This document shows, in pieces, positions 9,888-44,115 of a stretch of DNA of 64,000 nucleotides. The stretch comes from Phytoactinopolyspora alkaliphila (GTDB lineage Bacteria > Actinomycetota > Actinomycetes > Jiangellales > Jiangellaceae): contig NZ_JAAGOB010000002.1 of NCBI RefSeq assembly GCF_010550695.1, forward strand, positions 124,001 through 188,000, in the 5' to 3' direction. Under the pieces are notes generated by a model that saw only the letters and a program-made list of their open reading frames with translations, was not told the DNA's origin and searched no databases. How positions within the stretch are numbered: position 1 is the first letter of the stretch; each line of letters starts with the position of its first letter. The translations under genes and the position numbers were made by a program.

Positions 9888-10798
9888 CGGCGCCCGAGGT
9901 GGCACCGCCGGACACTCCACGACGCGCACGATCGGACCGGACGCTTAGCGGGTGGGCCTTCCTCGCGCCCTACGGCCTGGCCGTGGCCGTGCTGATCGCG
10001 TTGCCTGCGCTTCTCAACGTCGGGTACGCCTTCACCGATCACACCGGGTTGACGCGCGACCCGCAGTTCATCGGACTGGACAACGTCCAGAGACTCACCT
10101 CGGACACGTTCTTCCGCGACAGCGTCGAGGCTTCGTTGTTCCACGTCGCGGTCTCCGTGCCACTCCGGCTGATCGCGGCGGTGGGCTTGGCCCTGCTCCT
10201 CGCGGCGCCCCGACCCGGCGGCCGGTGGTTCCGCACCGCGGTCTACCTGCCCACCGTGATTCCGGACGTCGCGCTGGCGGTGCTGTTCCTCTGGGTGCTC
10301 AATCCCCTGTACGGGCCGCTGAACCAGCTGCTGGGGTTGTTCGGGCACTCCGGCTTCAACTGGCTGGCGGACCCGTCGACCGCACGGGTAGGCGTCGTAC
10401 TGATGCTGCTCTTCCCGATCGGTGAGGGCTTCATCGTGGTGCTCGCCGCGCGCCGGATGCTCGATGGGCGGCTGTACGAGGCGGCGGCGCTGGAGGGTTG
10501 CGGCCCGTTCGGGCAGCTTCGCCGGCTCACCCTCCCTCTGCTCGCACCGGTACTGATCCTCCTGGCCGTCCGGGACACCATCCTGACCCTCCAGGTCAAT
10601 TTCGTCCCGGCCTATGTGCTCACCGACGGCAGGCCGGCCAACGCCACGCTGTATCTGCCGGTCTACATCTTCGACCAGGCCTTCGAGTTCTCCGGCTTCG
10701 CCTATGCCGCTCTGATCACGATCGTGCTCATGGTGATCACCGCGACGATCATCGTCGCCCAGCTGCTCGCGGTACGACGCTGGCGGATCCTCCGATGA
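9884..10798 (+). CDS. Carbohydrate-type (CUT1) ABC transporter permease, MalF-like
   Basis: A 304-residue inner-membrane permease with six predicted hydrophobic segments. The ATPase-contact loop is YEAAALEGCGPFGQLRRLTL. It starts at a GTG overlapping the ATPase stop and completes the importer (two permeases, binding protein, ATPase). The permease-SBP-ATPase-permease gene order is less common than SBP-permease-permease. It is the last gene of the coupled series. About 100 bp further on is a large inverted repeat. Confidence 0.88.
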   Translation: MTAPEVAPPDTPRRARSDRTLSGWAFLAPYGLAVAVLIALPALLNVGYAFTDHTGLTRDPQFIGLDNVQRLTSDTFFRDSVEASLFHVAVSVPLRLIAAVGLALLLAAPRPGGRWFRTAVYLPTVIPDVALAVLFLWVLNPLYGPLNQLLGLFGHSGFNWLADPSTARVGVVLMLLFPIGEGFIVVLAARRMLDGRLYEAAALEGCGPFGQLRRLTLPLLAPVLILLAVRDTILTLQVNFVPAYVLTDGRPANATLYLPVYIFDQAFEFSGFAYAALITIVLMVITATIIVAQLLAVRRWRILR

Positions 10799-10900
10799 TC
10801 TACACCACGCTCCGCGTTGGCTCGAATCGCCGAATTGGCCATTGGTCGCGCTTCAATTCCATCCACCACCCGTTGAGGAGCCTCACTTCTATGCGCACAG

Positions 10901-10974
10901 TTGACTTCTCTGCGCAAAATCGCGCCACGGCCCCCGTAAGCTCCCTTTCGCGCGATTCTGCGCAGAGAAGTCAA
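10901..10974 (+). terminator. 25-bp inverted repeat after the transporter genes
   Basis: Arms 10901-10925 and 10950-10974 match over 25 bp with one mismatch around a 24-base loop. Part of the right arm (GCAGAGAAGTC) is repeated at 10981-10991. It lies in the 230-bp gap between the MalF-like permease and the next lipoprotein gene and is a probable transcription end for the hydroxyproline operon. The rest of the gap shows no gene. Confidence 0.55.
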
Positions 10975-11028
10975 TCCACAGCAGAGAAGTCGCGGCAGGA
11001 TGCCCCCATCAGTGAACCCGTGACCAGA

Positions 11029-14283: not shown

Positions 14284-14291
14284 CCAGGCTC

Positions 14292-14297
14292 TAGGCT
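14292..14297 (+). promoter_or_regulatory. Candidate -10 box for leaderless GntR mRNA
   Basis: TAGGCT (TANNNT) ends six bases before the ATG at 14304, and no ribosome-binding site is present. This suggests a leaderless transcript independent of the upstream propeller gene. No good -35 is visible. Confidence 0.4.
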
Positions 14298-14303
14298 TGG
14301 TGC

Positions 14304-15011
14304 ATGAGTGGGACGGGCTCGATCAAGTTGCCGACATTCGCCAAGCGGACCAGTCTGAGAGAGCAAGTCGCGGATGCGCTACGCGCGGCCGTCGTGTCAG
14401 GCGAGATGAAGCCGGGGCAGGTCTACTCTGCCCCGGCGCTCGCCGCGCGCTTCGGGGTATCGGCGACGCCGGTCCGAGAAGCGATGCTCGACCTGTCCAA
14501 GCAAGGCTTGATCGAGACCGTCCCGAACAAGGGCTTCCAGGTCACCAGTATCTCCGATGCCGATCTGGATCAGATCACCGAGATCCGACTACTGCTTGAA
14601 CCGCCGGCGGCCTCGATTGCCGCACGGCGTGCCACCGACGCCGACGTCGTGCGGCTGCGGCCATTAGCACAGGAGATCGTCGAATCCGCCGCCCGCGGCG
14701 ATCTCATCAGCTATGTCGAGGCCGACCGCGCATTTCACGGCCAGTTGCTCACCATCGGTGGGAACCGGCAGCTCGTGGACATCGTCTCGGAGCTGCGCTC
14801 GCGCACCCGCCTGTACGGGTTGTCCGGACTCGCTGAGCGGGGCCTGCTGGACACCACGGCGCGGGAGCACCTGACGATGTGCGACCATCTAGGCCGAAAC
14901 GACGCAGATGCACTGCGCACGCTGATGCATACTCACATCGGGCACGTCCGCCACGAGTGGGCCGGCAAAGCCCTTGCGCACCATGCCGTTGATGGCAATT
15001 CGCCAGCATAA
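14304..15011 (+). CDS. GntR-family transcriptional regulator, FCD (FadR) subfamily
   Basis: A 235-residue repressor. The N-terminal winged helix-turn-helix (about residues 15-80) includes LREQVADALRAAVVSGE and SATPVREAMLDLSKQGL. The all-helical FCD ligand domain (about 85-215) has probable metal-site residues in EADRAFHGQL and HTHIGHVRHEW. FCD regulators commonly control amino-acid and organic-acid catabolism, including hydroxyproline pathways. It is the best candidate for binding the GTCAC/GTGAC palindromes at 1695-1733, but this is inferred from position only. Confidence 0.85.
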   Translation: MSGTGSIKLPTFAKRTSLREQVADALRAAVVSGEMKPGQVYSAPALAARFGVSATPVREAMLDLSKQGLIETVPNKGFQVTSISDADLDQITEIRLLLEPPAASIAARRATDADVVRLRPLAQEIVESAARGDLISYVEADRAFHGQLLTIGGNRQLVDIVSELRSRTRLYGLSGLAERGLLDTTAREHLTMCDHLGRNDADALRTLMHTHIGHVRHEWAGKALAHHAVDGNSPA

Positions 15012-29849: not shown

Positions 29850-30302
29850 CTACGCCTCAGGGTGATCCCCGACATCTCCGGGTGACCAACCCGGAGGCTG
29901 GTTTCCTGTCATGACCGCTTCGAGCACGTCCGGCGTCAGGTCCTCCTTGTGCACATACGCAACCGCGCCACAGGTACGAGCGTCCGGGGGTAGGTCCGAT
30001 GCCGGATACGTGGACATCAACACGACGATGGTCGCCGGACAGGCAGCGAGCAGCCTCCGAGTCGCCTCGATGCCGGAGATACCTGGAAGGTTGATGTCCA
30101 TGAGCACGAGGCCCGGGCACGACGACGCAGCTTGGCGCACGGCATCCTCACCGGTCTTCGCCTCCCCGACCACCTGAAAACCACGCGTGGCACCGACAAC
30201 GACGCGTGCGACGGACAGGAAGGTCTCCTGATCGTCCACCACCAGCACGTCCACCGCCGACGTACGCGACTCGACAGGGAATCGCTGGGGAGTACCGGCC
30301 AT
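29850..30302 (-). CDS. Stand-alone response regulator receiver (REC) protein
   Basis: A 150-residue single-domain REC protein. The acidic pair is D23/D24, the phospho-acceptor is D69 (LMDINLPG), there is a Thr/Ser switch in MSTYPAS, and a Lys in VHKED. No output domain follows. The last 20 residues are Pro/Gly-rich. It is encoded 114 bases after a LuxR-type response regulator and histidine kinase, so it may be a phosphate sink or connector in that pathway. The ATG at 30302 is chosen as the last start before the domain. Confidence 0.78.
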   Translation of the reverse strand: MAGTPQRFPVESRTSAVDVLVVDDQETFLSVARVVVGATRGFQVVGEAKTGEDAVRQAASSCPGLVLMDINLPGISGIEATRRLLAACPATIVVLMSTYPASDLPPDARTCGAVAYVHKEDLTPDVLEAVMTGNQPPGWSPGDVGDHPEA

Positions 30303-30416
30303 GTCATCAGGATCCCCCGCATCCGGCCCGTTATCCACCCTGAGGGCACCCCTCCCATGGTGGTGCTGGCACCAAGGGCACCACATCACCGCACCAGAGA
30401 TGGCATGTGGCCATGG

Positions 30417-31109
30417 TCAGCCGCGCAGGGAAGCCAGGTACATCAAGACGGCGGTGACCCGGCGATGCGTCTCCGGCTCGCTGGACAAGCCGAGTTTGGC
30501 GAACAATGCGTTGATGTGTTTTTCGACGGCGCGCTCGGTGAGCACCAGATCGGCGGCGACACCGGCGTTGCTCTTACCCTGCGCTATTCGCTCCAGCACC
30601 TCTCGTTCGCGGGGGGTGAGCCTGCTGAGCGGATTGTCGGCCGGACGCGCCCCGGCGACGAGCAACTCGACGACATCCGGGTCCACAACGCTGCCACCGC
30701 GAGCCACCTCGCGGATAGCGCCGGCCAGCTGGTCCGGCTGGCTCACCCGTTCCTTCAGAAGGTAGGCACGGTGCTTGGAACCGCCCGCCAGCAACTCCAG
30801 CGCATACCCCGGCGCCGCGTACTGGGAAAGCACCACCACTCCGGTGCCGGGTGATGTCTCGCGGAGCCTGGTAGCCGCGCGGATCCCCTCGTCGCTGTGT
30901 GTCGGAGGCATCCGGATGTCGGTCACCACCACGTCGGGCTCCCGCGCGCGGACGACAGCCATCAGCCCGTCGAGATCGGCGGCCACGCCGACAACCTCGA
31001 GGTCCGGGTACAGCTCGAGGACACGTTGCACGCCTTCCCGGACCAGCAACGCGTCGTCGGCGACGACCACCCGCACCGTACCCGCCGGTGGCGCGTCTGT
31101 GTCGGCCAT
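30417..31109 (-). CDS. LuxR/NarL-type response regulator
   Basis: About 230 residues. The REC domain has D64 as phospho-acceptor (VTDIRMPP), and a C-terminal LuxR helix-turn-helix includes LTPREREVLERIAQG and LTERAVEKHINALFAKL. It is the cognate partner of the histidine kinase encoded immediately upstream. A GTG at 31142 overlapping the kinase stop would add 11 residues. The ATG at 31109 gives the usual N-terminus. Its REC domain closely resembles that of the cyclase fusion at 40748, down to the shared phrase LSQY, suggesting duplication. Its target is probably the ABC exporter operon that contains it. Confidence 0.85.
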   Translation of the reverse strand: MADTDAPPAGTVRVVVADDALLVREGVQRVLELYPDLEVVGVAADLDGLMAVVRAREPDVVVTDIRMPPTHSDEGIRAATRLRETSPGTGVVVLSQYAAPGYALELLAGGSKHRAYLLKERVSQPDQLAGAIREVARGGSVVDPDVVELLVAGARPADNPLSRLTPREREVLERIAQGKSNAGVAADLVLTERAVEKHINALFAKLGLSSEPETHRRVTAVLMYLASLRG

Positions 31110-31138
31110 GACCGCAGCGTACAGCGCGACGGCACCGG

Positions 31139-32725
31139 TCACGTGGATTCGTCCGGTGCGGGCACCGGGAGCTGGCCCCGGACGACCGTCCCGCTCCCCG
31201 TCGAGCTTTCGACCTCCAAACGCCCACCGAACGCACCGACCCGGTCGCGCATGTTGACGAAGCCGGCCCGGTCCTTCGCGGCCACCGGATCGAATCCCAG
31301 CCCGTCGTCGGCGACCTCGAAGAGGAGAGTCGTTCCCTTGTCGGCGAGACGAATCACCAGTTGAGCGCCCTCGCCCGCGTGTTTACCCGCGTTCTGCATT
31401 GCTTCGAGACAACAGAAGTAGACAGCGGATTCGAGTTGCGGGCCGAACCGCCGTTCAAGGTCGTTCTCGATCGTCGCCGGGACCGTCGACCGGTTCGCCG
31501 CATTTCGCAACGCCTCTGGGAGACCGTGCTCGCGCAGCAACGGAGGATAGATGCCGTGGGCTAGGTCGCGGAGCTCGGTCAATGTGTCCTGGGCATCGCC
31601 GCGCAATTCATCGAGCATCGCCGAGAGTTGCGGCGCACTGCCGTCCACCAGCCTGCGGGCGAGTGCGATCTTCACAGCGATGGCCACGAGCCGTTGCTGG
31701 GCGCCGTCGTGGATGTCGCGCTCGATCTGGCGCCGGGAGGCATCGGCGGCGGACACGATACGGGCACGCGAGGCTTGCAGCTCCTCATTGCGCTGGCGCA
31801 GTTCCTCCAGGGACGCCTGCAGCGCTGTGTCCAGCGAGACGTTGTGCAGAGCGAGGCCAACCTGTCTGGCCAACTCGGTCAGCACGCGATCGTCCTCGTC
31901 GGTGAAGCCCGGACTGTCCGCAGCCCGGGAGCTCGTCAGCAGGCCGAGAAGCCGGCCGAGGTGGGTGATCGGTGCGATCCGGAGCACGGTTCCCTCGGGC
32001 CGGCCGATCAGCACCTGTGGCAGCCAGACCTCCGCCCAGGCATTGCCAGACACCCGAGCCGCACTCACCGCCGTCAGCTCCGGGCCGGACAGCGCGATCC
32101 GGGTGCGCGGCTGCTCCGGCACTGAGACGGTCCGTTCCAGGACGCCGTCGCTACCGGTCCAGACTTCCGCACCAACGGGTCCCATGGTCGATCGCAGCGT
32201 CTCTGTGAGCTGCAGCAGCAACTCGTCCATCGGCACCGCCCGGCTCATCCGGGTACCGAACGTCTCGAGGACGGTCTTGGGAGGACGACGCCGGGCACCG
32301 ACCACCCCGTCGGCCAGCTCCCCCAGCCGGGTTCGGGCCGGCCCGGTCAGCAGAAGAGAGATCAGGCCGGCCACGATGGACAAACTCAGGATCCGGTGCT
32401 CGTCGCCCTCGACACCGTCGCCCAAGCCGACCACCACAACCAGATACACCGCGAGCACCATGAGCAGCACACCGCTGACGACGAGTGTCGGGGCGAACAC
32501 GGTTCCCGCACGCCGGCGCCCCCGCGCGGAGAACAACGCGGCGCCGGCAAAGGGTAGAGCGAGCAGACCACCCAAGGCGTACGGCATCATCCGCTCCGGT
32601 ACGTCCAGGAGAATGCGCAGCGCCCAGACGGCAACTGCCACGGTGACCGTGACCAGCACCAACCATCCGATCCACAGCACCACGTCGCGACGACTCCTGG
32701 CTCGTTCGCTCTGGATCCTGCTCAT
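31139..32725 (-). CDS. Sensor histidine kinase (NarL-class, HisKA_3)
   Basis: A 528-residue membrane kinase with five or so N-terminal hydrophobic segments (about residues 15-130). A GAF-like region, a coiled-coil linker (SLEELRQRNEELQASRARI), the phospho-accepting His in IERDIHDGAQQRLVAI, and a C-terminal HATPase_c domain with N and G boxes (AMQNAGKHA, DDGLGF) follow. The ATG at 32725 lies eight bases after GGGAGG. A GTG at 32734 overlaps that site. The gene starts 16 bases after the third permease gene, placing it in the same unit as the transporter, as in antimicrobial-peptide-sensing modules. Confidence 0.87.
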   Translation of the reverse strand: MSRIQSERARSRRDVVLWIGWLVLVTVTVAVAVWALRILLDVPERMMPYALGGLLALPFAGAALFSARGRRRAGTVFAPTLVVSGVLLMVLAVYLVVVVGLGDGVEGDEHRILSLSIVAGLISLLLTGPARTRLGELADGVVGARRRPPKTVLETFGTRMSRAVPMDELLLQLTETLRSTMGPVGAEVWTGSDGVLERTVSVPEQPRTRIALSGPELTAVSAARVSGNAWAEVWLPQVLIGRPEGTVLRIAPITHLGRLLGLLTSSRAADSPGFTDEDDRVLTELARQVGLALHNVSLDTALQASLEELRQRNEELQASRARIVSAADASRRQIERDIHDGAQQRLVAIAVKIALARRLVDGSAPQLSAMLDELRGDAQDTLTELRDLAHGIYPPLLREHGLPEALRNAANRSTVPATIENDLERRFGPQLESAVYFCCLEAMQNAGKHAGEGAQLVIRLADKGTTLLFEVADDGLGFDPVAAKDRAGFVNMRDRVGAFGGRLEVESSTGSGTVVRGQLPVPAPDEST

Positions 32726-32741
32726 GCCACTCACCTCCCTG

Positions 32742-35111
32742 CTATTCAGCTCTCAGAACGTGCCCGATGCGCATCGTCGCCGCCCGGTGCCCCGGCCAGG
32801 CTGCCAGCAGGTTCGCTGCCAGCAGCGCCAGCGGAACCACCAGGAGCAGTGCCGGCCACGCTGCCGGCGGCACGTAGTGCACGTGGGTGGTGTCCGCGTA
32901 GTACCGCCACAACACGCGTCCCAGCGCGATGCCGAGCGGCACACCCGCGGCCACACCTACCAGCGCCGGAACAGACGCCTGCGTCACCACGACGGCCCGG
33001 CTCTGCCAGGCCGTCATGCCGAGGGCGCGTAATACCGCAAGTTCCTGTCGGCGGCGACGTACCGCAGTGGTGAGCGTGTGCCCGACCGCCCCGAGCGCCA
33101 GGAGCGTGAGGAACGCGGCCAGGAAGACCGGCAGGCGCCGTATCTGCCTGAGCTCGCCCTCCGAGCTGCGTTCCAAGGCGGGCTGAATGAGCTTCTCGTC
33201 ATCGCCTGCCGCGCGTTGGAGCCGGGCCAGCACGGCCGCCGGATCCGCATCCTCGCGCACCACGATGTGGGCCGTGTGGAACATGAACTCACCGAAGAGC
33301 GAATCGAACTCGGATCTGGACACCCACGCACCGGTGTTGTAATAGTTCTGCACTCCTTCCGGGACGAACCCGAATCCGGTGACGGTGAGCTCGCGCGTCG
33401 CCCGCGTTCCCGTCAGCTCGATCGTGTCGCCCACGGCAACCCCGGCCGCCGAGGCGTACGGCGCGACGACGATCTCGGCCGACCGGCTCGGCAGTCGGCC
33501 GCTCGTGACCACCGCGTCGATCGCGGTGCCGACCGGATCCAGCGTGTACACGGTGATCTGGATCTCGGCGTGCTGGGCCACGGCGGACCGGCTGTCGTTG
33601 ACGGCCACGACGTCCGGGTCGGCCGCGATGATCGCCAGCATCTCGTCAGCGGAAACGACATCCTCGCCGAAGAAGCCCAATGTCGCCTCGAGCTGGTGAA
33701 CCTGACCGTATCGGGCTGGGTTGGCTATCGCATCGTCGACAGCGCTGGAAAAGATGAGGGCGGCGACCACTCCGCTGACGCCGGCGACCGCGCCCAACAG
33801 AGCCGGACGTACCGAGACGGCACGCGATCCCTGCCCCGATTCGAGCGCGAACCTCGCCCCGACCACGACCGGCACCGGGAAGCCGGCTCGAGCAGCACCG
33901 GCCACGGCGGCCGACTGCCGCAAAGACCCCGAGGAGCGCTGGGCAAGCCAGCTCGCGCTGACGGCACCGGCCGCCACCAACAGTGGGACGCCTACGATCC
34001 CCGGCACCAGTACCCGCAGGTCCACGTCGACTCCAGGTTCCGGCTCCATCCACGATGCCGCTCCATACGGGAACCATTGCGACGCGACGACGGAGGCCGC
34101 GCCGCCGAGCTGCGTACCGATCACCGCCGCCAGCAAAGGGCCGAGCGCTGCCGCCCAACTTGACGCACGCGGCGTCATCCCCAACCACCGGAGCACCTCG
34201 AGCTCCGCCGTGGCAGAGGTGGTGTGCCGGGCAATCGCCTGGCCCACCAAGACCACCGAGGCCGCGCCCACGGCTACGGCTACGGCTAACATCGCGTTCG
34301 ACTCGAAGCCGGTGATGCTCTGCTCGTACTCGACGGAATCCACATGCGACCAGACGTCGATGTCGCTGCGACCGGTGACCCGGACCAGGTCAGCCGCGAA
34401 GGCGGCGATCGCGTCGCCGCCTTCCTCGAGCCGCACCAATCCGCTCATCATCGCGACGGCTCCGGAGGCACCGAGCAGGTTCGGGGCATACTCGGTGACC
34501 AGCCCGGCGGATGGGACGAGGATTCCACGCGTGTCCAGGGCACTGTCGGACAGCAGATACGACCGGACCACCCCGACGATCTGAATCTCTACCGCGGGAC
34601 CATCTGGGAGCAGGTCCGGATCGCGCCAGAGAGCCTCTAGTGTGTCTGGCTCGTACAGCGCAAGGATCACAGAATCACCAACACCCTTCCCCGACGTCTC
34701 CACGAAGCCGCTCGTGACCACGGCCTCGTCCGGTTGGGTCGGGTCAGCCAGCCGGCCTTCCAGGACTACCGGCCGCTCCACCGTCCGCATGGCGTCAACG
34801 CCGATCGGCACCGGCTGCTCGCTCGCCTGGCCGTCGACGTAATACCGGGTCCAGGCCGTCTCGGCCACTGCCGCGACTTGCGGCATCTCCCGAATCACAT
34901 CCCAGTCGAACTCCGGATCGTTGGGCACCACTTCCACGGTGGCCGGCAGCGTCCGGTCCAGCAGCCGCTCCACCGCGCTCGCGCCCCTGAGCGCACCGGC
35001 CAGGGCCGTCATGACCGCGCCCGCGGCCAGGGCGATCAACAACGTGAGCACCAGCAGCGATCGCCACCGTCGCCGGAGGTCCAGGCGAACCCAGAATGTG
35101 ATCGCCGCCAT
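32742..35111 (-). CDS. FtsX-like ABC permease, copy 3 of a tandem array
   Basis: A 789-residue permease. The conserved N-terminal anchor is LDLRRRWRSLLVLTLLIA, with a large extracytoplasmic domain, FtsX blocks (about residues 250-400 and 650-780), and a C-terminus ending HVLRAE. This is a MacB/FtsX-type duplicated architecture. Such proteins act in lipoprotein, lipid or peptide export or resistance with a MacB-type ATPase. Its ATG overlaps the stop of copy 2 (TGATG). It is closest in layout to the two upstream copies and has no separate promoter. Confidence 0.85.
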   Translation of the reverse strand: MAAITFWVRLDLRRRWRSLLVLTLLIALAAGAVMTALAGALRGASAVERLLDRTLPATVEVVPNDPEFDWDVIREMPQVAAVAETAWTRYYVDGQASEQPVPIGVDAMRTVERPVVLEGRLADPTQPDEAVVTSGFVETSGKGVGDSVILALYEPDTLEALWRDPDLLPDGPAVEIQIVGVVRSYLLSDSALDTRGILVPSAGLVTEYAPNLLGASGAVAMMSGLVRLEEGGDAIAAFAADLVRVTGRSDIDVWSHVDSVEYEQSITGFESNAMLAVAVAVGAASVVLVGQAIARHTTSATAELEVLRWLGMTPRASSWAAALGPLLAAVIGTQLGGAASVVASQWFPYGAASWMEPEPGVDVDLRVLVPGIVGVPLLVAAGAVSASWLAQRSSGSLRQSAAVAGAARAGFPVPVVVGARFALESGQGSRAVSVRPALLGAVAGVSGVVAALIFSSAVDDAIANPARYGQVHQLEATLGFFGEDVVSADEMLAIIAADPDVVAVNDSRSAVAQHAEIQITVYTLDPVGTAIDAVVTSGRLPSRSAEIVVAPYASAAGVAVGDTIELTGTRATRELTVTGFGFVPEGVQNYYNTGAWVSRSEFDSLFGEFMFHTAHIVVREDADPAAVLARLQRAAGDDEKLIQPALERSSEGELRQIRRLPVFLAAFLTLLALGAVGHTLTTAVRRRRQELAVLRALGMTAWQSRAVVVTQASVPALVGVAAGVPLGIALGRVLWRYYADTTHVHYVPPAAWPALLLVVPLALLAANLLAAWPGHRAATMRIGHVLRAE

Positions 35112-37570
35112 CACTCGGCCCTCAGAACTTGGCCGACCCGCATCGACGCTGCTCTCTGGCCGGGCCAGGCCGCCAGCAGGTTCGTCGCCAGCAACGCGAC
35201 GGGAACGACGAGTATCAGCGCCACCCACGCCACCGGCGGCACGTAATGGACGTACAGCGCGTCCGCGACATACCGCCAGACTCCGCGTCCCAGGGCGACG
35301 CCCAAGGGAATCCCCACCACGAGGCCTGCGAGGGTGAGCACCGTTGCCTGGGTGAACACTGCGCCGCGCGCCTGCCACTGGGTCATGCCCAGGGCCCGCA
35401 GCACGGCCACGTCGCTCCTGCGCCGCCGGACCGCCGCAGCCAGCGCGTAGCCCACCGTGCCGAGCGCCAGCACCGCCAGGAAACACGCCAGGAGGACAGG
35501 CAAGGGGCGCATGAACCTGAGCTCCGGCGGGCTTTGGAACACGTACGGAAAGAGGCCGAACTCGTCGGTCCCCGCCACGGCGTACAACTGCGGAAGAATC
35601 GCCTCGGGGTCGACGCCGGACTCAAGCACGATCTCGCCGTAGTGGAACATGAACTCCCCGGCGAACAGAGCGTCATAGGCCGCCGGAGTGGTCGTCATGT
35701 CCGGCCCGAAGGAGCGATCAGTCACGCTGATCCCGACGACGACCAGGTCGGTGGAGCCTGTCGTTCCGGTCACCACGACGGTGTCGCCGACGGTGGCGTC
35801 GAGGGCGTCCGCCGCGACGCGCGAAAGCATCGCCTCGGCCGGTCCCAGCGGCGGTCTGCCCTCGGCGATGGTGTGGCCGGGAGGGCTTCCTTCGGCGCTG
35901 TACGAGAGTACCGTGACCTGTTCACCACCGACTCGGGCTACCTGCGCCCGGATGCCGTTGACCCCGGTCACTCCCGGCACGTCCGCGAGGGCGGGGAAGA
36001 CGACGTCGGACTGGACGTACGTGCGGTTGTCGAAGCCGATCCATGCCTCGACCTGGTGGACGATCCCAAATCGGGCCGCGTTCGTCGCGGCGTCGTCGAC
36101 GGCGGCGGAGAAGGTGAAGGCGGCCAGCACGCCAGTCACGCCGGCCACCGCGCTCACGAGAGCCGGCCGAACCGGGACGGACGTCGAGCCTCGCCCTGGC
36201 TCCAAGGCGAATCGAGTGCCCATGATCACGGAGACCGGCAGCCCCATCGACGCCGCCGCCGTGGCGACCACGGAACGGCGGGGCGCGGGTGCAAACCTGA
36301 GCGCACGCAGGGTCGACGCGGCCGTCATGGTAGCGGCGGCTCCGACCAGCACCGGCACGATGAACAGCCCCCCACCCATCACCAGGATGTCGACGTGGGC
36401 CCCCGGGGCAGGCTCGGCATGCGACGCCGATCCGATCGGGAACCACCGCGACGCCACCACCGCCACGAGCACGCCGAGTACAGCTCCGGCAGCCGCCGCG
36501 GCTGCCGGTCCGGCCGCGGCCGCCCGGGCGGCCTGACCTGGTGTCATTCCGACACCACGCAGTATCCGGAGGTCCGTGGCCGCTGAAGCCGCAAGCCGCG
36601 CGATCGAGGTTCCCACGATGAAGATCGACGCGATGCCGGCCGCTGCCGCGAGGGTGTACAGGCTAGTGGTTTCGAACCCGATCGCGTCCTGCATCTCACG
36701 CGCGATGCTGGCCAGGTTGTGCACGTCGATGTCGGACCGACCGGTCGCCTCCTGCAGGCTCGCCAGAAACGCCGGAATCTCACGCTCTCCTCCCTCCAGG
36801 CGCACCAGAGCGTTGATGGAGGCAAGGCTCTCGGCGCCGAGGAGGTTGGGCGTGTATTCGGCGTACAGGCCGGCCGACGGCACGAGGTACCCAGCCGTGT
36901 CCATCCAGTCGCCGAACCAGGGGGAGCGCACAATGCCAACGATCGTGGCTTCTATCACCGGTCCCGCCGCCTGAGCCGTATCGTTGGGGCTCAGGCCGGC
37001 CTCAACGGCAGCGGTCTGCTGGTGACTCGTCAGGAGCCAGAGCTCGGCACGGTTGCTCCGTGCGGCGGCCGGGCCCTGGCCGGTGTCGATCTGCTCAGGC
37101 GTGTACAAGCCCAACGCCACGGTGTCACCGACGGCCTTGCCATACCGGCTGGCATAAGCGGGAGTGACCACCACCTCATCCGCCCTGGCGGGATCGGAGA
37201 GCCTTCCGTCGAGTACCACGGCCCTCTCCAGGCTCCGCATCGCCTCGGCGCCGGCCGGCGGAACCATGAGGGAGTCAGCGGCCGGCTCGCCGTCGATCTC
37301 GAAGCCGCTGTAGACGACCTCTGCCAGCGCCTCGACCTGGGGCAGCTCGCGAACCGGTTCCCAGTCGAAGCCAGGTGTGAGGGGAGCCACCAGGACCGTG
37401 GCCGGAATGGTCTGGTCGACGAGCCGATCCATCGCACTCCCGCCACGTCTCGCGCCCGCGATAGCCGTCAGCACGACGCCGGCGGCGAGGGCGATGAGCA
37501 GGGTGAGGACCAGGATCGACCGCCAGCGACGACGGAGGTCGATCCGGAACCAGAAGATGATCGCGGCCAT
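35111..37570 (-). CDS. FtsX-like ABC permease, copy 2 of a tandem array
   Basis: An 819-residue paralogue of its neighbours, with the same N-terminal segment (IDLRRRWRSILVLTLLIALA), periplasm-like domain, two FtsX regions and C-terminal QVLRAE. It carries an insertion of about 30 residues around PEQIDTGQGPAAARSNRAEL. Its start and stop overlap the adjacent copies by one base each (TGATG). The partner ATPase is encoded at 39972-40724. The substrate is unknown. Confidence 0.85.
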   Translation of the reverse strand: MAAIIFWFRIDLRRRWRSILVLTLLIALAAGVVLTAIAGARRGGSAMDRLVDQTIPATVLVAPLTPGFDWEPVRELPQVEALAEVVYSGFEIDGEPAADSLMVPPAGAEAMRSLERAVVLDGRLSDPARADEVVVTPAYASRYGKAVGDTVALGLYTPEQIDTGQGPAAARSNRAELWLLTSHQQTAAVEAGLSPNDTAQAAGPVIEATIVGIVRSPWFGDWMDTAGYLVPSAGLYAEYTPNLLGAESLASINALVRLEGGEREIPAFLASLQEATGRSDIDVHNLASIAREMQDAIGFETTSLYTLAAAAGIASIFIVGTSIARLAASAATDLRILRGVGMTPGQAARAAAAGPAAAAAAGAVLGVLVAVVASRWFPIGSASHAEPAPGAHVDILVMGGGLFIVPVLVGAAATMTAASTLRALRFAPAPRRSVVATAAASMGLPVSVIMGTRFALEPGRGSTSVPVRPALVSAVAGVTGVLAAFTFSAAVDDAATNAARFGIVHQVEAWIGFDNRTYVQSDVVFPALADVPGVTGVNGIRAQVARVGGEQVTVLSYSAEGSPPGHTIAEGRPPLGPAEAMLSRVAADALDATVGDTVVVTGTTGSTDLVVVGISVTDRSFGPDMTTTPAAYDALFAGEFMFHYGEIVLESGVDPEAILPQLYAVAGTDEFGLFPYVFQSPPELRFMRPLPVLLACFLAVLALGTVGYALAAAVRRRRSDVAVLRALGMTQWQARGAVFTQATVLTLAGLVVGIPLGVALGRGVWRYVADALYVHYVPPVAWVALILVVPVALLATNLLAAWPGQRAASMRVGQVLRAE

Positions 37571-39966
37571 CACTCGGCCCTCAGAACATGACCGACCCGC
37601 ATCGACGCGGCCCGATGTCCGGGCCAGGCCGCCAGCAGGTTGGCCGCCACCAGAGCGACCGGCACCACGAGCACGAGCGCTAGCCAGGCCACCGGGGGCA
37701 CGTAGAAGACGGGGGTGGTGTTCGCGACGTAGCGCCAGACCGTCCGGCCGAGCGCCACTCCCAGCGGCACCCCCGCGGCCAGGCCCACCAGCGCCAGCAC
37801 CGACGCCTGGGTCACCACGACTCCGCGGGACTGCCACCGCGTCATGCCCAGGGCGCGAAGCACCGCGAGGTCGTGCCGGCGTCGGCGTACCGCCGTGGCC
37901 AGCGCGTGTCCGACCGCCCCGAGGGCCAGCAGCGCCAGGAAACCGGCCAGATACACCGGCAGTTCACGCACCTGCTGCAGCTCGGCCAGCTCAACCGGTG
38001 GAGCCACCGGCTCAAGCGTGAGGCCGGCCGACTCTGCCGCCCGAGCGATCACGGCGGCGGGATCGGCACCCGAGCGAAGGGCTACCAGGCCGAGATGGAA
38101 CTTGAAGCCATCGAAAAGCGCGTCATACGTCTCCGGCGTGACCCACGCCCCGGTCGCGTAGTCGTTGTGCGGCGCGGCCGGCACGAATCCCGTGCCAGCA
38201 ACGGTGGCTTCGCTATCTCCACGGGTGCCGGTGAGGCGGATTGTGTCCCCGACGGCCGCACCAATGGAGTCCGCCGTCCTCGGCGCCAGCACGATCTCAC
38301 CGGCACGCTCCGGCATCCGCCCGCCGGTCAGCACGACGTCCAGCGGGTTCCCCACCGGCCGGAACGTGGCCACCGCCACCGCCACATCGCCGGCCTGCGC
38401 TATGTCCTGCCGGGTGTCGTTGACCGCAACGACATCTGGGTCGTCGGCGAGCGCCGGCAACAGTGTGTCAACCGCCGCGAAGTCACGGCTGTTGTAGCCC
38501 AGGAAGCCCTGCAACTGGTAGGTCTGGCCGAACCGTTCCAGGTTGGTGGCGGCGTCGTTGATCCCGCTGGAGAAGGTCATCGCCGCCAGCACACCGAGCA
38601 CGCCGGCCACCGCGCCCAGGATCGCCGGGCGCACCGGCACCGCGCTGCGCCCTTGGCCGGCCTCGAGCGCGAACCTGGCCCCCACGATCGCCGGCACCGG
38701 AGCACCGACACGGGCCGCCGCTGCGGCCACGGCCGACCGATGACTGGGAGCAGTCCGCAGCGTAGAACGCACCGCGAACCAGGCGGCCCCGACGGCTGCC
38801 AGCGCGACCAGCAGGGGCGTTGCCACCACGCCGGTGACGAGCACCGCGGGGTCGACGTCCATCCCGGGGGACGGCTCCGCCAGCGCCGCGGTGCCGATGG
38901 GGAACCATTGTGACGCCACTACCGCACCCGCCGTGCCCACAACGGCTCCTGCCCCGGCCGCCAGGGTCGGTCCGATCACCGCAACCAATCGCGACTGATC
39001 CGGAGTCATACCCACGGCCCGCATCACCTGAAGGTCGGCCACGGTCGACGCGGCGTAACGGGCGATCGACTGGCCGAGCAGGAATACCGCGGCGATCCCG
39101 GCCGCCGCCGCGAACGCCAGCAGGCTGTTCGCTTCGAACCGGGTGACGTTCTCGACATGGCGCGCCTTGTCGAACCAGTTCCAGACGTCGATGCCGGAAT
39201 TTCCGGTCACCCCCGCGAGCGCCGCTTTGAACTCCGGGAGGGCCGACTCGCCGCCGTTCAGGCGCACGAGCGCGTTGATGGACGCGCTGCTGAGCTCTGA
39301 GCCGAGCAGATTGGGCGCGTATTCCGCGTGCAGGCCCGGTGACGGAACGATGAATCCAAGATCGTTCACCGTCTCCTCGCTGAACCAGCCGGAGCGGATG
39401 ACGCCAACGATCGTCGCCTCGATGGCCGGCCCTTCCCCCCATGTCGGCTCGATGTCGTCCTCGAAGTACTGGTCGACCTGCTCAGGGGCCGCCAGCTCGA
39501 TGGTGACGGTGTCGCCCACGCCGAGACCGAACGAGTCCTCGAACTTGGCAGAGACCACGACTTCGTCGGGTCGGGTCGGGTCGGCGAGGCGTCCTTCGAG
39601 CACCACCGGCCGCTCGATGGTGCGCATGATCTCGTCGTCCGCCGGCGGGAAGTGGCCAACGAAGGCCTGGTGCTCAGGCGGGACGCCATCCACCACATAG
39701 CCGGTCACCACGAACGTAGTCAGCGCTTCCACCTGGGGTAGGGCACGTACCGCGTCCCAGTCGAAGCCTGGCTGGTTCGGCAAGACGACCGCCGTCGCCG
39801 GTAACGTCTGTTCCACCAACCTGTCGATCGCGCTCGCGCCGCGCCGGGCCCCGGCGACAGCCGTCATGACGGTGCCGGCGGCTACCGCTATCAGCAGCAC
39901 GAGCACCAGCAACGACCGCCACCGCCGGCGGATGTCGATCCGGACCCAGGACGCAACGGCGCTCAT
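37570..39966 (-). CDS. FtsX-like ABC permease, copy 1 of a tandem array
   Basis: A 798-residue paralogue with N-terminal VRIDIRRRWRSLLVLVLLIA and C-terminal HVLRAE. It contains two FtsX-type membrane domains separated by long extracytoplasmic regions. The ATG at 39966 lies five bases after the ATPase stop. Three consecutive full-length permeases with one ATPase suggest tandem duplication and possibly alternative or heteromeric complexes. Confidence 0.86.
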   Translation of the reverse strand: MSAVASWVRIDIRRRWRSLLVLVLLIAVAAGTVMTAVAGARRGASAIDRLVEQTLPATAVVLPNQPGFDWDAVRALPQVEALTTFVVTGYVVDGVPPEHQAFVGHFPPADDEIMRTIERPVVLEGRLADPTRPDEVVVSAKFEDSFGLGVGDTVTIELAAPEQVDQYFEDDIEPTWGEGPAIEATIVGVIRSGWFSEETVNDLGFIVPSPGLHAEYAPNLLGSELSSASINALVRLNGGESALPEFKAALAGVTGNSGIDVWNWFDKARHVENVTRFEANSLLAFAAAAGIAAVFLLGQSIARYAASTVADLQVMRAVGMTPDQSRLVAVIGPTLAAGAGAVVGTAGAVVASQWFPIGTAALAEPSPGMDVDPAVLVTGVVATPLLVALAAVGAAWFAVRSTLRTAPSHRSAVAAAAARVGAPVPAIVGARFALEAGQGRSAVPVRPAILGAVAGVLGVLAAMTFSSGINDAATNLERFGQTYQLQGFLGYNSRDFAAVDTLLPALADDPDVVAVNDTRQDIAQAGDVAVAVATFRPVGNPLDVVLTGGRMPERAGEIVLAPRTADSIGAAVGDTIRLTGTRGDSEATVAGTGFVPAAPHNDYATGAWVTPETYDALFDGFKFHLGLVALRSGADPAAVIARAAESAGLTLEPVAPPVELAELQQVRELPVYLAGFLALLALGAVGHALATAVRRRRHDLAVLRALGMTRWQSRGVVVTQASVLALVGLAAGVPLGVALGRTVWRYVANTTPVFYVPPVAWLALVLVVPVALVAANLLAAWPGHRAASMRVGHVLRAE

Positions 39967-39971
39967 GACGG

Positions 39972-40724
39972 TCAGCTCGTCTGAGCCGGCGCATCGGCCA
40001 TTACGTCGACACCGGCCGCCCGGCCGTCGTCGTTGTTTCCCTGGCCGTCGTCGTCATCTCCGATGATCCGCCCGTCACGCATGCGGACCACCCGCGACGC
40101 GCCGCTGGCGACGTCGGCCGAGTGTGTCACCATCAGGATGGTCTGCCCGTCGCCGTGGAGGCGGCGGAACAGCTCCAGGATCTCGACGCCGCCCTCGGAG
40201 TCCAACGCGCCCGTCGGCTCGTCGGCCAGCAGCACGGCCGGCTCGTTGACCAGTGCCCTGGCTATCGCCAGCCGCTGTCGCTGGCCGCCGGAGAGCACCG
40301 ACGGGACCTCCTCGGTCCGGTCTCCCAGGCCCAGCAGGTCCAGCAGGTCGCGGGCACGGGTCTCCGCGGCCTTCCGGCGCATGCCGCCGAGGATCGCCGG
40401 CAGAGCGATGTTGTCGAGGGCGGACACGCCCTCCAGCAGGTTGAAGAATTGGAAGACGATGCCGACGTGGTGCCGCCGGAACTTCGCCAGCCAGTTCTCG
40501 TCGCGATCGTGGACCTGCAGCTCGTCGACGAACACCTCGCCTTCATCCGCCTGGTCCAGGCCGGCGAAGATGTTCAGCAGTGTCGACTTGCCGCAGCCGG
40601 ACGGCCCCATCAGCGCGACGAACTCGCCTCGGGCGACGTCGAGGTCGACGCCGCGCAACGCCCGCACTGGCGCAAGCTCCGCTTCGAACGTGCGACGGAC
40701 GCCACGTGCTTTCAACGCGGTCAT
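39972..40724 (-). CDS. ABC transporter ATP-binding protein, MacB/LolD-like
   Basis: A 250-residue ATPase of the MacB/FtsE/LolD class. Walker A is GPSGCGKST, the Q-loop is in VFQFFNLLEGVSALDNI, the signature is LSGGQRQRLAIARAL, and Walker B is LLADEPTGALD. The C-terminal tail is Asp/Gly-rich. The ATG at 40724 has a GAGGGG site. It powers the three FtsX-like permeases that follow. Its start is 23 bases after the stop of the cyclase-response regulator gene, so the two are probably cotranscribed. Confidence 0.9.
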   Translation of the reverse strand: MTALKARGVRRTFEAELAPVRALRGVDLDVARGEFVALMGPSGCGKSTLLNIFAGLDQADEGEVFVDELQVHDRDENWLAKFRRHHVGIVFQFFNLLEGVSALDNIALPAILGGMRRKAAETRARDLLDLLGLGDRTEEVPSVLSGGQRQRLAIARALVNEPAVLLADEPTGALDSEGGVEILELFRRLHGDGQTILMVTHSADVASGASRVVRMRDGRIIGDDDDGQGNNDDGRAAGVDVMADAPAQTS

Positions 40725-40747: not shown

Positions 40748-42079
40748 TCAGCCCTCTGGTGATCCGAAGACGCGGCAGGCCGTGACCGGCGCGTCGCGTC
40801 CCTTGACGTGTACGGGATCGAGCCGTTCGAACGTCCATTCCGGCGCGGCCAACGCGGTGGCTTCACTGACCACGGTGGTTCCCGCTGGCCGGGCCAGGTC
40901 CTGCAGCCGCTGTGCGAGGTTGACGGTGTCGCCGACCAGCGTGTATTCGAGTCTCTCGTCGCTGCCGAGCAGCGCCGCAGCCACCTCACCGGTGGACAGG
41001 CCGATGCCCATCCCGAACGGCTCAAGCCCTTCCGTGGCCCAGCCGCGGTCTACCTCGGCTTGCAGACGGTGCATGTCGAGGGCGGCGACCAGCGCCCGCT
41101 CGGCATGATCGGCCTGCGGGAACGGTGCGCCGAAGACAGCCATCACCGCGTCCCCCACGTACTGCATGACGGTCCCCTCTTGCTTAAGAATGGCAGAGTT
41201 CATGGCTTTGCGGTGCATATTCAGCTGCCGGGCCAGCACTGACGGGTCACTGCGTTCGGCGATGCCGGAGTAGCCCCGGACATCGGACATCAGCACCGTG
41301 ACCGTCAGCCGTTCGGTGCGGCCGATGGCACCCGGGTCGTCGCGCAGCTTGTCCGCCAGGCCAGAAGGAAGCAGCCGAGACAGGCTCTCGCCCTGTTCCT
41401 CGCGGTCCAGGATCGCGTTGTGCAGGGTGCGGAGCCGGTTCAGGGCGTCTCGGCGTCCCGTACTCGCGTCCCGAGCCAAGTGCAAGAAGAGCTGCTCCAC
41501 AGCGGTGTCGACAGCCGCGGGCGTCGTCTGCAGCTGCGCGGCGATGGCCTTGACGGCCCGACCCTCCGCCACCATGGTCAACAGCGTCTCTTCGTCTTCG
41601 GACAATCCGGTGCCGCCCCGTGCGGGAGCCACGAGCGCCGCCACGATCTCTGGATCGAGCATCGAGCCCCCCGCGGCGACCTCCCGCACCGCTCGCACCA
41701 GCCGATCCCCGTCCGCGACCCGCTCCTTGAGCAGATACGCGTAACCGGCAGCCCCCTGCGCGAGCAAAGCGACCGCATACTCCGGGTCGCCGTACTGAGA
41801 CAGCACGACGATCCCCGTCCCGGGCAGGCGCTTACGCACCTCTTTGGCCGCTTCGATCCCCTCGCTGCCGAACCGGGGCGGCATCCGGATGTCCGTGACC
41901 ACGACCTGTGGACGGTGCTCGGTCGCTTGGGTGACCACGCCGTCGTAATCCTCGGCGGTGGCCACCACATCGACGTCGCCTGCCAGTGTCAGCAGTGCGT
42001 GCACACCAGCGCGAACGATGGCGTTGTCATCCGCCAGCAGTACGCTGATCCGTCCGTCTGTCGAGGTCACAAGGCTCAT
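40748..42079 (-). CDS. Response regulator fused to a class III nucleotidyl cyclase
   Basis: A 443-residue three-part protein. A REC domain (residues 10-125) has phospho-acceptor D63 (VTDIRMPP). A degenerate LuxR-like helix-turn-helix (about 158-205; GLSEDEETLLTMVAEGRAVK) follows. The class III cyclase domain (about 255-430) has metal residues D266 (LMSDVRGYS) and D310 (VGDAVMAVFG), the T380 and GDTVN block, and N387/R391 for transition-state stabilisation. The usual base-selecting Lys is Gln (Q306), so ATP/GTP preference is uncertain. The ATG at 42079 follows GGGGAG. It probably makes cAMP or cGMP when phosphorylated. It heads the unit containing the ABC exporter, kinase and second regulator, and lies divergent to a cNMP-binding protein. 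Confidence 0.87.
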   Translation of the reverse strand: MSLVTSTDGRISVLLADDNAIVRAGVHALLTLAGDVDVVATAEDYDGVVTQATEHRPQVVVTDIRMPPRFGSEGIEAAKEVRKRLPGTGIVVLSQYGDPEYAVALLAQGAAGYAYLLKERVADGDRLVRAVREVAAGGSMLDPEIVAALVAPARGGTGLSEDEETLLTMVAEGRAVKAIAAQLQTTPAAVDTAVEQLFLHLARDASTGRRDALNRLRTLHNAILDREEQGESLSRLLPSGLADKLRDDPGAIGRTERLTVTVLMSDVRGYSGIAERSDPSVLARQLNMHRKAMNSAILKQEGTVMQYVGDAVMAVFGAPFPQADHAERALVAALDMHRLQAEVDRGWATEGLEPFGMGIGLSTGEVAAALLGSDERLEYTLVGDTVNLAQRLQDLARPAGTTVVSEATALAAPEWTFERLDPVHVKGRDAPVTACRVFGSPEG

Positions 42080-42202
42080 CACACTCCCCAGCAACCTCTT
42101 AGTGCCAGGGTGTCGGCCTCCGGATCTGCCGGGGTGCCAGCATCCCCCTCAACGGCCAGCTTGCACCCTGGTACCGCCTGAGCACCAGATCTAACGTCGT
42201 CA

Positions 42203-42224
42203 GTACCGCCGTTCCGGGCGGTAC
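42203..42224. promoter_or_regulatory. Dyad in the divergent cyclase / cNMP-binding gene promoter region
   Basis: GTACCGCC and GGCGGTAC form a perfect 8-bp dyad around a 6-base centre. It lies in the 171-bp gap between the divergent cyclase and CNB-domain genes, close to the start of the latter. It may be an operator for a regulator acting on both directions. Confidence 0.4.
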
Positions 42225-42250
42225 CGATGCTCAGATCGGAGTTGACCACA

Positions 42251-43282
42251 ATGTCTTCCACGACCGTGCGAGCGACGATCACGTCACTTTCCTGGATTCC
42301 GTCCGAAGCCGTCACCGGCATGTCCAAAGGCGCGTTCGAGCTGGGTGTGAGTCACTACGACGAGCCCCCGCCGGACTCGTTCGAGGACCTGGAAGAGCTA
42401 CGCGCGGGTGACCGTTTCCGCTTCGCCAACGTGCTGGCCGCCTCCGGCCGGGTCGAGGACGGCCGGATCGTACGAGCCGTCTACCAGCCGCACTCCACCG
42501 TGGTCATGGGCTCTACGACGGTCCGCGTCGGCAGGCTCGGGGCGACGTTCGCGGCGGTGCCGCTGCCGGTCCTTCGTGGCGAGCCTGAGTTCCGGCCCGA
42601 CGGCAGCGTCCGGCTGACGCAGACGTGCGGCGGGCGGACGGCGGTGCCGATACCCCGGGCCGTCCCCCATCCACCGTTCCTGAAGATGCAGGCACCGTGG
42701 GTATGGACCACGCTCGGTCTCACCCTCCGTCCCGACGGCACGTCGGAGACGGAACTCATCGGTGCGAGCACCTTTCCGCGGCATTGGGTGTACGACGCGA
42801 GCCGGACGCTGGCGTTCAAATCCGGTCTCACCGACTACGCCGGTTGGGCCGCGCACTCGTTCGGCGCCCGTACGCCGTGGGGAGACGAGGATTCCCCGGC
42901 GCTGGTCACCGAGGCGGAGAGCGCGAGCGAACGCGTCCTGTCCAAGCTACTGATGAGTGGCGCGTCCCGGCCGAGAATCACCTCCCTGCGCGCAGGCGAG
43001 ACGCTCACCCGGCAAGGTGACGCTGGAGACGAGCTGTATCTCCTGCTCGACGGAGTTCTTGCTGTCGACGTCGACGGCGACGAGCTCGCACAGCTGGGCC
43101 CCGGCGCGATCCTCGGCGAGCGGGCCGTTCTGGAGCACGGCCTTCGCACGTCGACGCTCACCGCCGTCACACCGGTGCGAGTCGCCGTCGCACCGGGAGA
43201 CACGATCGACCGGGCTCGGCTCGCCATGCTCGCGGACTCGCATCGGCGCGAAGACCGCGCCGGCCGAGCTGAGCCGGCGTGA
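42251..43282 (+). CDS. Protein with C-terminal cyclic-nucleotide-binding domain
   Basis: A 343-residue soluble protein. Residues 1-235 form an unrecognised beta-rich domain with several Trp/Pro-rich blocks (PHPPFLKMQAPWVWTT). Residues about 240-325 are a CNB domain. Its phosphate-binding-cassette-like segment GAILGERAVLEHGLRTST includes the conserved Glu and Arg. There is no DNA-binding domain, so it is not a Crp/Fnr regulator. It sits divergent from a nucleotidyl cyclase and overlaps a metallo-hydrolase gene (GTGA). Binding of the cyclase product is a strong inference. The ATG at 42251 follows a GGAG site. Confidence 0.8.
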   Translation: MSSTTVRATITSLSWIPSEAVTGMSKGAFELGVSHYDEPPPDSFEDLEELRAGDRFRFANVLAASGRVEDGRIVRAVYQPHSTVVMGSTTVRVGRLGATFAAVPLPVLRGEPEFRPDGSVRLTQTCGGRTAVPIPRAVPHPPFLKMQAPWVWTTLGLTLRPDGTSETELIGASTFPRHWVYDASRTLAFKSGLTDYAGWAAHSFGARTPWGDEDSPALVTEAESASERVLSKLLMSGASRPRITSLRAGETLTRQGDAGDELYLLLDGVLAVDVDGDELAQLGPGAILGERAVLEHGLRTSTLTAVTPVRVAVAPGDTIDRARLAMLADSHRREDRAGRAEPA

Positions 43283-44115
43283 AGCTGGTCCTTCACGGGG
43301 TTCGCGGCTCGACGCCGGCGTCCGGACCGGGGTTTCTCCGCGTCGGCGGACATACGTCGTGCGTGTCCGTGACCTTGCGCAACGCGGCGGCGCCGGCACT
43401 CGTCCTGGACGCGGGGACCGGATTGACCAATCTGTCGGCGATGCTCGGCGGAGCACCGTTTCGCGGCGAGATCGTGCTGAGCCATCTGCACTGGGACCAT
43501 GTCCAGGGGATCCCGTTCTTCCGGGCGGGCGACACCGCTGCCGCCGACGTCATCCTGCATCTGCCCGCCCAGGACGGCGCCGCGGCGGGCAGGCCGGGAT
43601 CGGCCGCCACGCTCCTGCGCCGCACGATGTCGCCGCCGCATTTCCCGATCGGCCCGGAAGGCCTTGCCGGTCGATGGCGCTTCGAGGCCCGCGACGCCGG
43701 ATGGTTCACGGCGGGCGGGGCGAGGGTGCTGCTCGCCGACGTGCCGCACAAGGGCGGGCGAACCTTCGGCATCAGGGTGGAGGCCGACGACGCCTCATTC
43801 GCCTATCTGCCGGACCATGATCCTTCTCTCGACCCCGGACCCGGCGTCGCGTTGGCCAAGGGTGTCGACGTGCTTCTTCACGACGCCCAGTTCACCGACG
43901 CCGAACGTCGGTGGGCGCGGGCGTACGGGCACGCGACCATCGAAGACGCGATCACCGTGGCGGTCCGCGCCGGAGTGCGCCGCCTAATGCTGGTCCACCA
44001 CGGACCGGCCCGCACCGACGACCAGATCGAGGAGCTCACCGCGAAGTATGCCGCCGATGCACCACTTCCCGTGACCGTGGGCCGGGAGGGCGACGAACTC
44101 GACCTCGGCCGCTGA
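43279..44115 (+). CDS. MBL-fold metallo-hydrolase (possible cyclic-nucleotide phosphodiesterase)
   Basis: A 278-residue metallo-beta-lactamase-fold enzyme. The binuclear metal motif HxHxDH is at H69, H71, D73 and H74 (SHLHWDH). Later ligands are likely in LLHDAQFTD, YGHAT and LVHHGPA. Its COG1235/phosphodiesterase-like layout lacks beta-lactamase or glyoxalase features. The GTG start overlaps the stop of the CNB protein gene. With a cyclase next door, hydrolysis of cAMP/cGMP is a reasonable hypothesis, but other phosphodiester substrates fit equally by sequence. It ends three bases from the convergent truA. Confidence 0.78.
   Translation: MKLVLHGVRGSTPASGPGFLRVGGHTSCVSVTLRNAAAPALVLDAGTGLTNLSAMLGGAPFRGEIVLSHLHWDHVQGIPFFRAGDTAAADVILHLPAQDGAAAGRPGSAATLLRRTMSPPHFPIGPEGLAGRWRFEARDAGWFTAGGARVLLADVPHKGGRTFGIRVEADDASFAYLPDHDPSLDPGPGVALAKGVDVLLHDAQFTDAERRWARAYGHATIEDAITVAVRAGVRRLMLVHHGPARTDDQIEELTAKYAADAPLPVTVGREGDELDLGR

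Follow-up and report, generated by a model that had tools for sequence, protein, structure and literature searches.

We describe a candidate signalling cassette in Phytoactinopolyspora alkaliphila, a soil actinobacterium of the family Jiangellaceae, of which Jiangella is another genus. The cassette lies in a stretch of 64,000 nucleotides of contig NZ_JAAGOB010000002.1, which we call the window. Its three open reading frames (ORFs) are found where a preliminary description of this DNA had located them: a receiver-cyclase gene (P0001, 40751..42079, minus strand), a divergent gene for a protein that joins an unnamed N-terminal domain to a cyclic-nucleotide-binding (CNB) domain (N-CNB, P0002, 42251..43282, plus strand) and a gene for a metallo-beta-lactamase (MBL)-fold hydrolase (P0003, 43279..44115, plus strand). 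We consider it likely that this cassette constitutes a cyclic-mononucleotide signalling circuit under two-component control, in which a histidine kinase drives both transcription and messenger synthesis, N-CNB senses the messenger and the MBL enzyme clears it. In fact, the idea that synthesis, sensing and breakdown of a cyclic mononucleotide may be encoded together is supported by gene order, conservation and intact catalytic and binding residues, to which we add gene co-occurrence and a conserved promoter palindrome, all read from sequence. Two-component control is now on firmer ground than when it was first proposed.

The circuit that we infer would operate as follows. A histidine kinase in the membrane, perhaps with input from an adjacent FtsX-type ABC transporter, would phosphorylate both a NarL-family regulator and the receiver-cyclase. 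Phosphorylation of the receiver would rearrange the dimer and turn on the class III cyclase, whose product would most likely, by a modest preference, be cyclic AMP (cAMP), or else cyclic GMP (cGMP) or another cyclic nucleotide. This messenger would bind the CNB domain of N-CNB and alter the activity of the N-terminal domain, until the MBL hydrolase, translationally coupled to N-CNB, cleaved it and reset the circuit. One regulator, probably the NarL partner, could govern both arms through the palindrome in the divergent promoter.

To our knowledge, the roles of cyclic nucleotides in most actinobacteria are poorly known beyond Crp-type regulators. The cassette joins synthesis, sensing, probable breakdown and upstream control; it also has a conserved candidate operator and an effector domain that Pfam lacks. 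It provides a test case for cyclic-nucleotide output outside the Crp type, and another for what Gln-type class III cyclases use as their substrate. Among open-licence papers, we found no description of its gene combination. A more far-reaching picture, which we hold tentatively as possible rather than probable, is that of a cyclic-nucleotide signalling system of Actinomycetota, Dormibacterota and Chloroflexota: one kinase would address sister regulators for transcription and for messenger synthesis, the messenger would control an effector domain of undescribed biochemistry, and the MBL phosphodiesterase would be a module that also serves different cyclases and different CNB effectors, namely MFS-CNB and MFS-CNB-patatin proteins. 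Since Gln is invariant at the substrate position of the receiver-cyclases, the nucleotide made may not be cAMP.

Linkage and co-occurrence of the cassette genes

A collection scan returned 254 N-CNB relatives, and the best 80 of these 254, taken with their flanks, form a set of loci that spans Actinomycetota, Dormibacterota and Chloroflexota. At 56 of the 80 loci a class III cyclase gene lies less than 2 kb from N-CNB (49 receiver-type, 7 other), as it does at 48 of the 64 loci with 3 kb or more of flank on each side; an MBL gene lies less than 1 kb from N-CNB at 48/80. When 20 genomes without a close cyclase were checked, 11 proved to have an orthologous receiver-cyclase elsewhere. The same association appears in a phylogenetic profile of 394 class-level genomes, where 29 have N-CNB, 32 the receiver-cyclase and 23 the two together (Fisher 1e-24), and in the 372 of these outside the host family, with 13, 17 and 8 respectively (Fisher p 3e-9), both tests ignoring kinship among genomes. 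N-CNB and the receiver-cyclase thus cluster and co-occur across phyla, often with the MBL gene. The preliminary description had named unclustered orthologues as a refutation of its idea; the idea withstood this test. The P. alkaliphila genome has two class III cyclase matches only in 5.5 Mb; because of this scarcity and of the conservation of the arrangement across phyla, we take the cassette to be beyond chance.

Within the host family (22 genomes), 14 genomes have all three genes, one lacks the MBL gene only (G011), one, 81% complete, has N-CNB alone of the three (G004), and six are without full-length N-CNB, cyclase and MBL. The family locus is syntenic and sits beside truA/rplQ/rpoA. In Jiangella the cyclase gene is adjacent to N-CNB and divergent from it; in the other three cassette-bearing Phytoactinopolyspora genomes the two genes share a contig but are 9-18 kb apart.

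The cyclase beside N-CNB can also be a different protein. At L062, L064, L108, L115, L133, L139, L149 and L152 an AAA-TPR class III cyclase, only distantly related to the receiver-cyclase, takes its place, and at L072 the neighbouring cyclase is likewise without a receiver link. Such replacement is expected if N-CNB depends on a cyclic nucleotide and not on one particular cyclase protein. At L073 (G369), the N-CNB gene and the receiver-cyclase gene beside it both look broken, which is consistent with joint decay of the two.

The receiver-cyclase

The first description of P0001, as a response regulator with a class III cyclase domain and a degenerate helix-turn-helix (HTH), is borne out by domain searches. 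On the minus strand, an N-terminal receiver (41741..42043; Response_reg 1.9e-16, protein residues 18-118) is followed by a degenerate LuxR/GerE-like HTH (41489..41605), a signalling helix and a class III nucleotide cyclase domain (40787..41305; Guanylate_cyc 3.2e-22), with the stop codon at 40748-40750. The start is probably ATG 42079, with TTG 42094 as the alternative. In the receiver, both the phosphoacceptor Asp (D63) and the conserved Lys (K118) of NarL/LuxR receivers are present, and D63, S94 and K118 show no variation across the receiver-cyclase alignment. We call the HTH degenerate because its GerE score of 17.7 bits falls under the cut-off of 23.5; its recognition-helix positions vary in the same alignment, which is not the pattern of an intact DNA-binding HTH.

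The catalytic core is preserved. Metal-binding D271 and D315 in P0001 numbering, which are D266 and D310 when counted from ATG 42079, are conserved in 54/54 gap-free receiver-cyclases, as are the transition-state residues N392 (53/54) and R396 (55/55 gap-free rows). The first substrate-specifying position, however, does not hold the Lys of canonical adenylate cyclases: it is Gln in 53/53 gap-free receiver-cyclases, and the second substrate position is Thr or Ser. This Gln had been reported as Q306 in place of the ATP-type Lys, correctly so when residues are counted from ATG 42079; counted from TTG 42094 it is Q311. Lys occupies the position in 7/11 non-receiver cyclases of the same set. In the best-matching solved domains the equivalent residue is Glu in 2w01, a guanylyl cyclase, and Lys in 1wc0. 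Gln is found there in mycobacterial Rv0386, which is an adenylate cyclase; we treat 2w01 and Rv0386 as leads rather than tests. Gln at this position does not exclude ATP. Still, because every gap-free receiver-cyclase has replaced the substrate Lys with Gln, the cyclic nucleotide made is uncertain.

The loss of the substrate Lys, together with the presence of a second class III cyclase in the genome, could also be read to mean that the cyclase domain is non-catalytic in vivo, that the protein serves as a receiver-based regulator and that N-CNB senses the product of the other cyclase. We find this very unlikely: nearly all homologues keep the two metal Asps as well as the Asn and Arg of the transition state, and other class III cyclases occupy the same place beside N-CNB in some lineages. 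The receiver-cyclase shares with class III cyclases (closest solved catalytic domains 2w01, 6fht, 1wc0 and 3r5g) a core with both metal Asps and the transition-state Asn/Arg. Like receiver-linked class III cyclases it has an intact receiver; it differs from them in the decayed LuxR HTH that follows the receiver and is related to the adjacent NarL regulator, and in the Gln.

The N-CNB protein and its unnamed domain

The gene divergent from the cyclase does encode a CNB domain, as previously described, but its start is not 42227: conservation makes ATG 42251 the more likely one. The CNB domain (42983..43213, plus strand; cNMP_binding 2.1e-16 over residues 253-329) carries a phosphate cassette whose Glu and Arg are invariant in an alignment of 74 sequences, and its modelled structure matches the solved CNB domains of Crp, GlxR, PKG and HCN with Z scores of about 13-14. 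N-CNB thus resembles Crp and GlxR in having a CNB domain with the conserved Glu and Arg; it differs from them in having no DNA-binding domain and in placing an unnamed domain ahead of the CNB domain. We looked at the Thr of the phosphate cassette (RT[SA]T) as a possible sign of cGMP and set it aside as undiagnostic: loci with Lys-type cyclases have the same residue. Thr is also present at the phosphate cassette of cAMP-binding Crp/GlxR proteins; the Crp-like proteins of the host family itself read RSA at that position.

The unnamed domain (42251..42922, plus strand, about 224 residues) is indeed unrecognised, as had been noted, since no Pfam family scores above cut-off in the N-terminal ~225 residues of any of the 74 family members. 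A profile search of the PDB with this domain gave no significant sequence match. AlphaFold2 predicts it confidently as mostly beta, with a predicted local distance difference test score (pLDDT) of 87.3 alone and 89.7 with the CNB domain. Foldseek returned nothing at E < 0.001 against PDB and viral models. One fold stands out in the structural comparison: 3c5p, a protein of unknown function from Bacillus anthracis (BAS0735), aligns over 175/194 residues with Z 12.2, a root-mean-square deviation of 3.7 and 16% identity, without a sequence match, and besides 3c5p entries the next chain among the Foldseek best 1000 reaches Z 4.5 at most. The two folds may be alike; the 194-residue chain of 3c5p is too short for an added CNB domain. 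A literature search on 3c5p/BAS0735 gave unrelated matches only.

Invariant residues of the N-terminal domain include Q124, R136, R177, H178, W179 and K190 (counted from ATG 42251) and suggest that it carries a binding or catalytic site. It is plausible that this domain is the output of N-CNB. At L137, two N-CNB paralogues lie near each other (10001-10999 and 13816-14514), with one MBL gene.

The MBL-fold hydrolase

The reported 4-bp overlap of the CNB gene with the metallo-hydrolase gene is confirmed by the P0002 stop codon at 43280-43282 and the P0003 GTG start at 43279. The hydrolase belongs to Lactamase_B_2 (PF12706, 3.6e-17), and its H69, H71, D73, H74, H157, D179 and H240 do not vary among 60 sequences. 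Its SHLHWDH motif and PF12706 membership are those of atypical class-II phosphodiesterases, which are recognised by [T/S]HXHXDH and PF12706 (PMC9293780). Rv1339, a demonstrated cyclic-nucleotide phosphodiesterase, has this motif and family membership, and its group has been described as RNase Z-related (PMC9293780); Apyc1 and its bacterial relatives cleave cyclic mononucleotides (PMC9117128). The cassette enzyme has the MBL fold, the motif, PF12706 and the relation to RNase Z in common with Rv1339 and Apyc1. It differs from them as a distinct subfamily, known from sequence and linked to CNB and cyclase genes, that scores about 50 bits against the NCBI model (cut-off 400).

The strongest support for its role is its genomic neighbourhood. 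In genomes without N-CNB, CNB and/or class III cyclase genes are found on the fetched stretch at 11/12 MBL loci, and we regard the enzyme as probably breaking down the cyclic-nucleotide messenger. At L212 (6148-10324), L213 (1900-7279) and L215 (1-5778) the MBL gene adjoins long ORFs that combine MFS, CNB and patatin phospholipase domains (Pfam), which makes these proteins candidates for unusual cyclic-nucleotide effectors. At L216-L223 MBL relatives lie near class III cyclase-AAA(-TPR) and/or MFS-CNB proteins. The cyclase, CNB and MBL pattern thus seems to recur with other effectors, suggesting a modular design with exchangeable parts. Phytoactinopolyspora MBL genes at L076 (6802-7833) and L079 (1146-2120) contain an extra segment near residue 100, and phage records yielded a single match to the MBL protein, 42% identical over 52 residues.

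Besides the invariant Gln and the disregard of kinship in the co-occurrence tests, several observations weigh against the proposed circuit. Neither cyclase nor MBL gene lies beside N-CNB at 16/80 loci, some of them at contig ends, and the MBL gene is missing from many cassettes (about 40% of loci). Nine Frankia-family genomes have a receiver-cyclase paralogue (60-63% identical) and no N-CNB, and eight fetched loci around this paralogue (L224-L231) contain no CNB or MBL match. The MBL protein reaches 49.9-50.1 bits against NF041851, a cyclic-nucleotide phosphodiesterase model with a cut-off of 400; among curated models it matches those for RNase Z best, and its C-terminal motif region is in common with RNase Z. 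The RNase Z matches, the low score and the missing MBL genes would suit a partial version of our reading, in which cyclase and sensor are rightly paired and the substrate of the MBL enzyme is a different phosphodiester or something that the N-terminal domain produces. We think this unlikely, since at 11/12 loci from genomes that lack N-CNB the MBL gene is still accompanied by CNB or class III cyclase genes, and since the enzyme shares its motif and PF12706 with Rv1339. Cleavage of the messenger itself remains our preferred role for it.

A kinase, a transporter and a sister regulator

The preliminary description overlooked a minus-strand run downstream of the cyclase gene. It begins 23 bp past the cyclase stop with an ABC transporter ATPase (39972..40724; ABC_tran 1.6e-35, family hidden Markov model (HMM) 1e-103) and continues with three FtsX-like permeases: the first at 37570..39966 (FtsX 2.3e-20 and family HMM), the second at 35111..37570 (likely ATG 37570; FtsX 1.2e-14 and family HMM) and the third at 32742..35111 (likely ATG 35111; family HMM 3.5e-294). 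Then come a sensor histidine kinase of HisKA_3 type (31139..32734), which scores 497 bits against the cassette kinase HMM, a family of which one member has HisKA_3 and HATPase_c by Pfam, and a NarL-family response regulator with an intact-looking HTH (30417..31142). A stand-alone receiver-domain protein (29850..30389; receiver HMM 1e-32), also on the minus strand, is of uncertain membership in the run. The cyclase-led genes are likely an operon, because the intergenic gaps are small or overlapping. The presence of the kinase and the NarL regulator downstream, on the cyclase strand, adds support for two-component control. In the stretches fetched around N-CNB, to which these counts are limited, HMM matches to the kinase occur at 43/80 loci, to the permease at 35/80 and to the ATPase at 36/80.

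At 46% identity, the NarL regulator is the closest of 17 other genome matches to the receiver-HTH part of the cyclase. A likely history is that a regulator was duplicated, that one copy gained a cyclase domain and that the HTH of this copy decayed.

A cyclase gene that adjoins a CNB effector gene is also found in Pycsar (PycC plus CNB effector), and the cassette could be imagined as a Pycsar-like antiphage system in which a pyrimidine cyclic nucleotide would act on N-CNB as a toxic effector. PADLOC does match the cyclase domain to PycC models (1.7e-20) and the CNB domain to PycTIR models (5e-8), and Gln stands for the ATP-type Lys; however, the PADLOC matches may stem from shared domain families only. 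Membership in Pycsar itself was considered and rejected. In place of a TIR or membrane effector stands an N-terminal domain that is mostly beta and has no Pfam match above cut-off; the cyclase heads a run with an ABC transporter, a kinase and a NarL regulator; the chromosomal locus is syntenic in the host family; and relatives of N-CNB or of its N-terminal domain were found neither in viral contigs nor in 72,556 plasmids at the sensitivity used. We therefore judge a Pycsar-like function highly improbable.

The divergent promoter

Between the cyclase and N-CNB genes lies a conserved palindrome, GGGTGCCAGCATCC (consensus GGGTGCYRGCACCC), at 42132..42145, followed by a half site, TGCACCCTG, at 42162-42170. 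With at most one mismatch, GGGTGCNNGCACCC occurs in 22/73 N-CNB upstream regions (30%), against 18/2190 random windows of the same loci (0.8%) and 5/1460 Markov shuffles (0.3%). The enrichment of GGGTGCYRGCACCC upstream of N-CNB is about 37-fold, partly post hoc because the motif came from inspecting these same promoters. The palindrome is found as well upstream of the unlinked cyclases at L077, L078 and L080, in three Phytoactinopolyspora genomes, where it differs at two or three positions from the 14-mer used in that search. Its location and architecture make it a candidate operator to which the NarL regulator could bind. A scan of the P. alkaliphila genome found it in 11 places, which do not exceed the reversed control, so no wider regulon emerges from it at that stringency. 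The GTACCGCC/GGCGGTACC repeats of the same promoter, both inverted and direct (42170-42227), were considered as the operator and rejected, being rare upstream of relatives. A weaker match to the palindrome, with two mismatches, lies at 30360-30374, in the gap that separates the NarL regulator from the stand-alone receiver gene; with 0.77 matches expected in the window, it may be due to chance.

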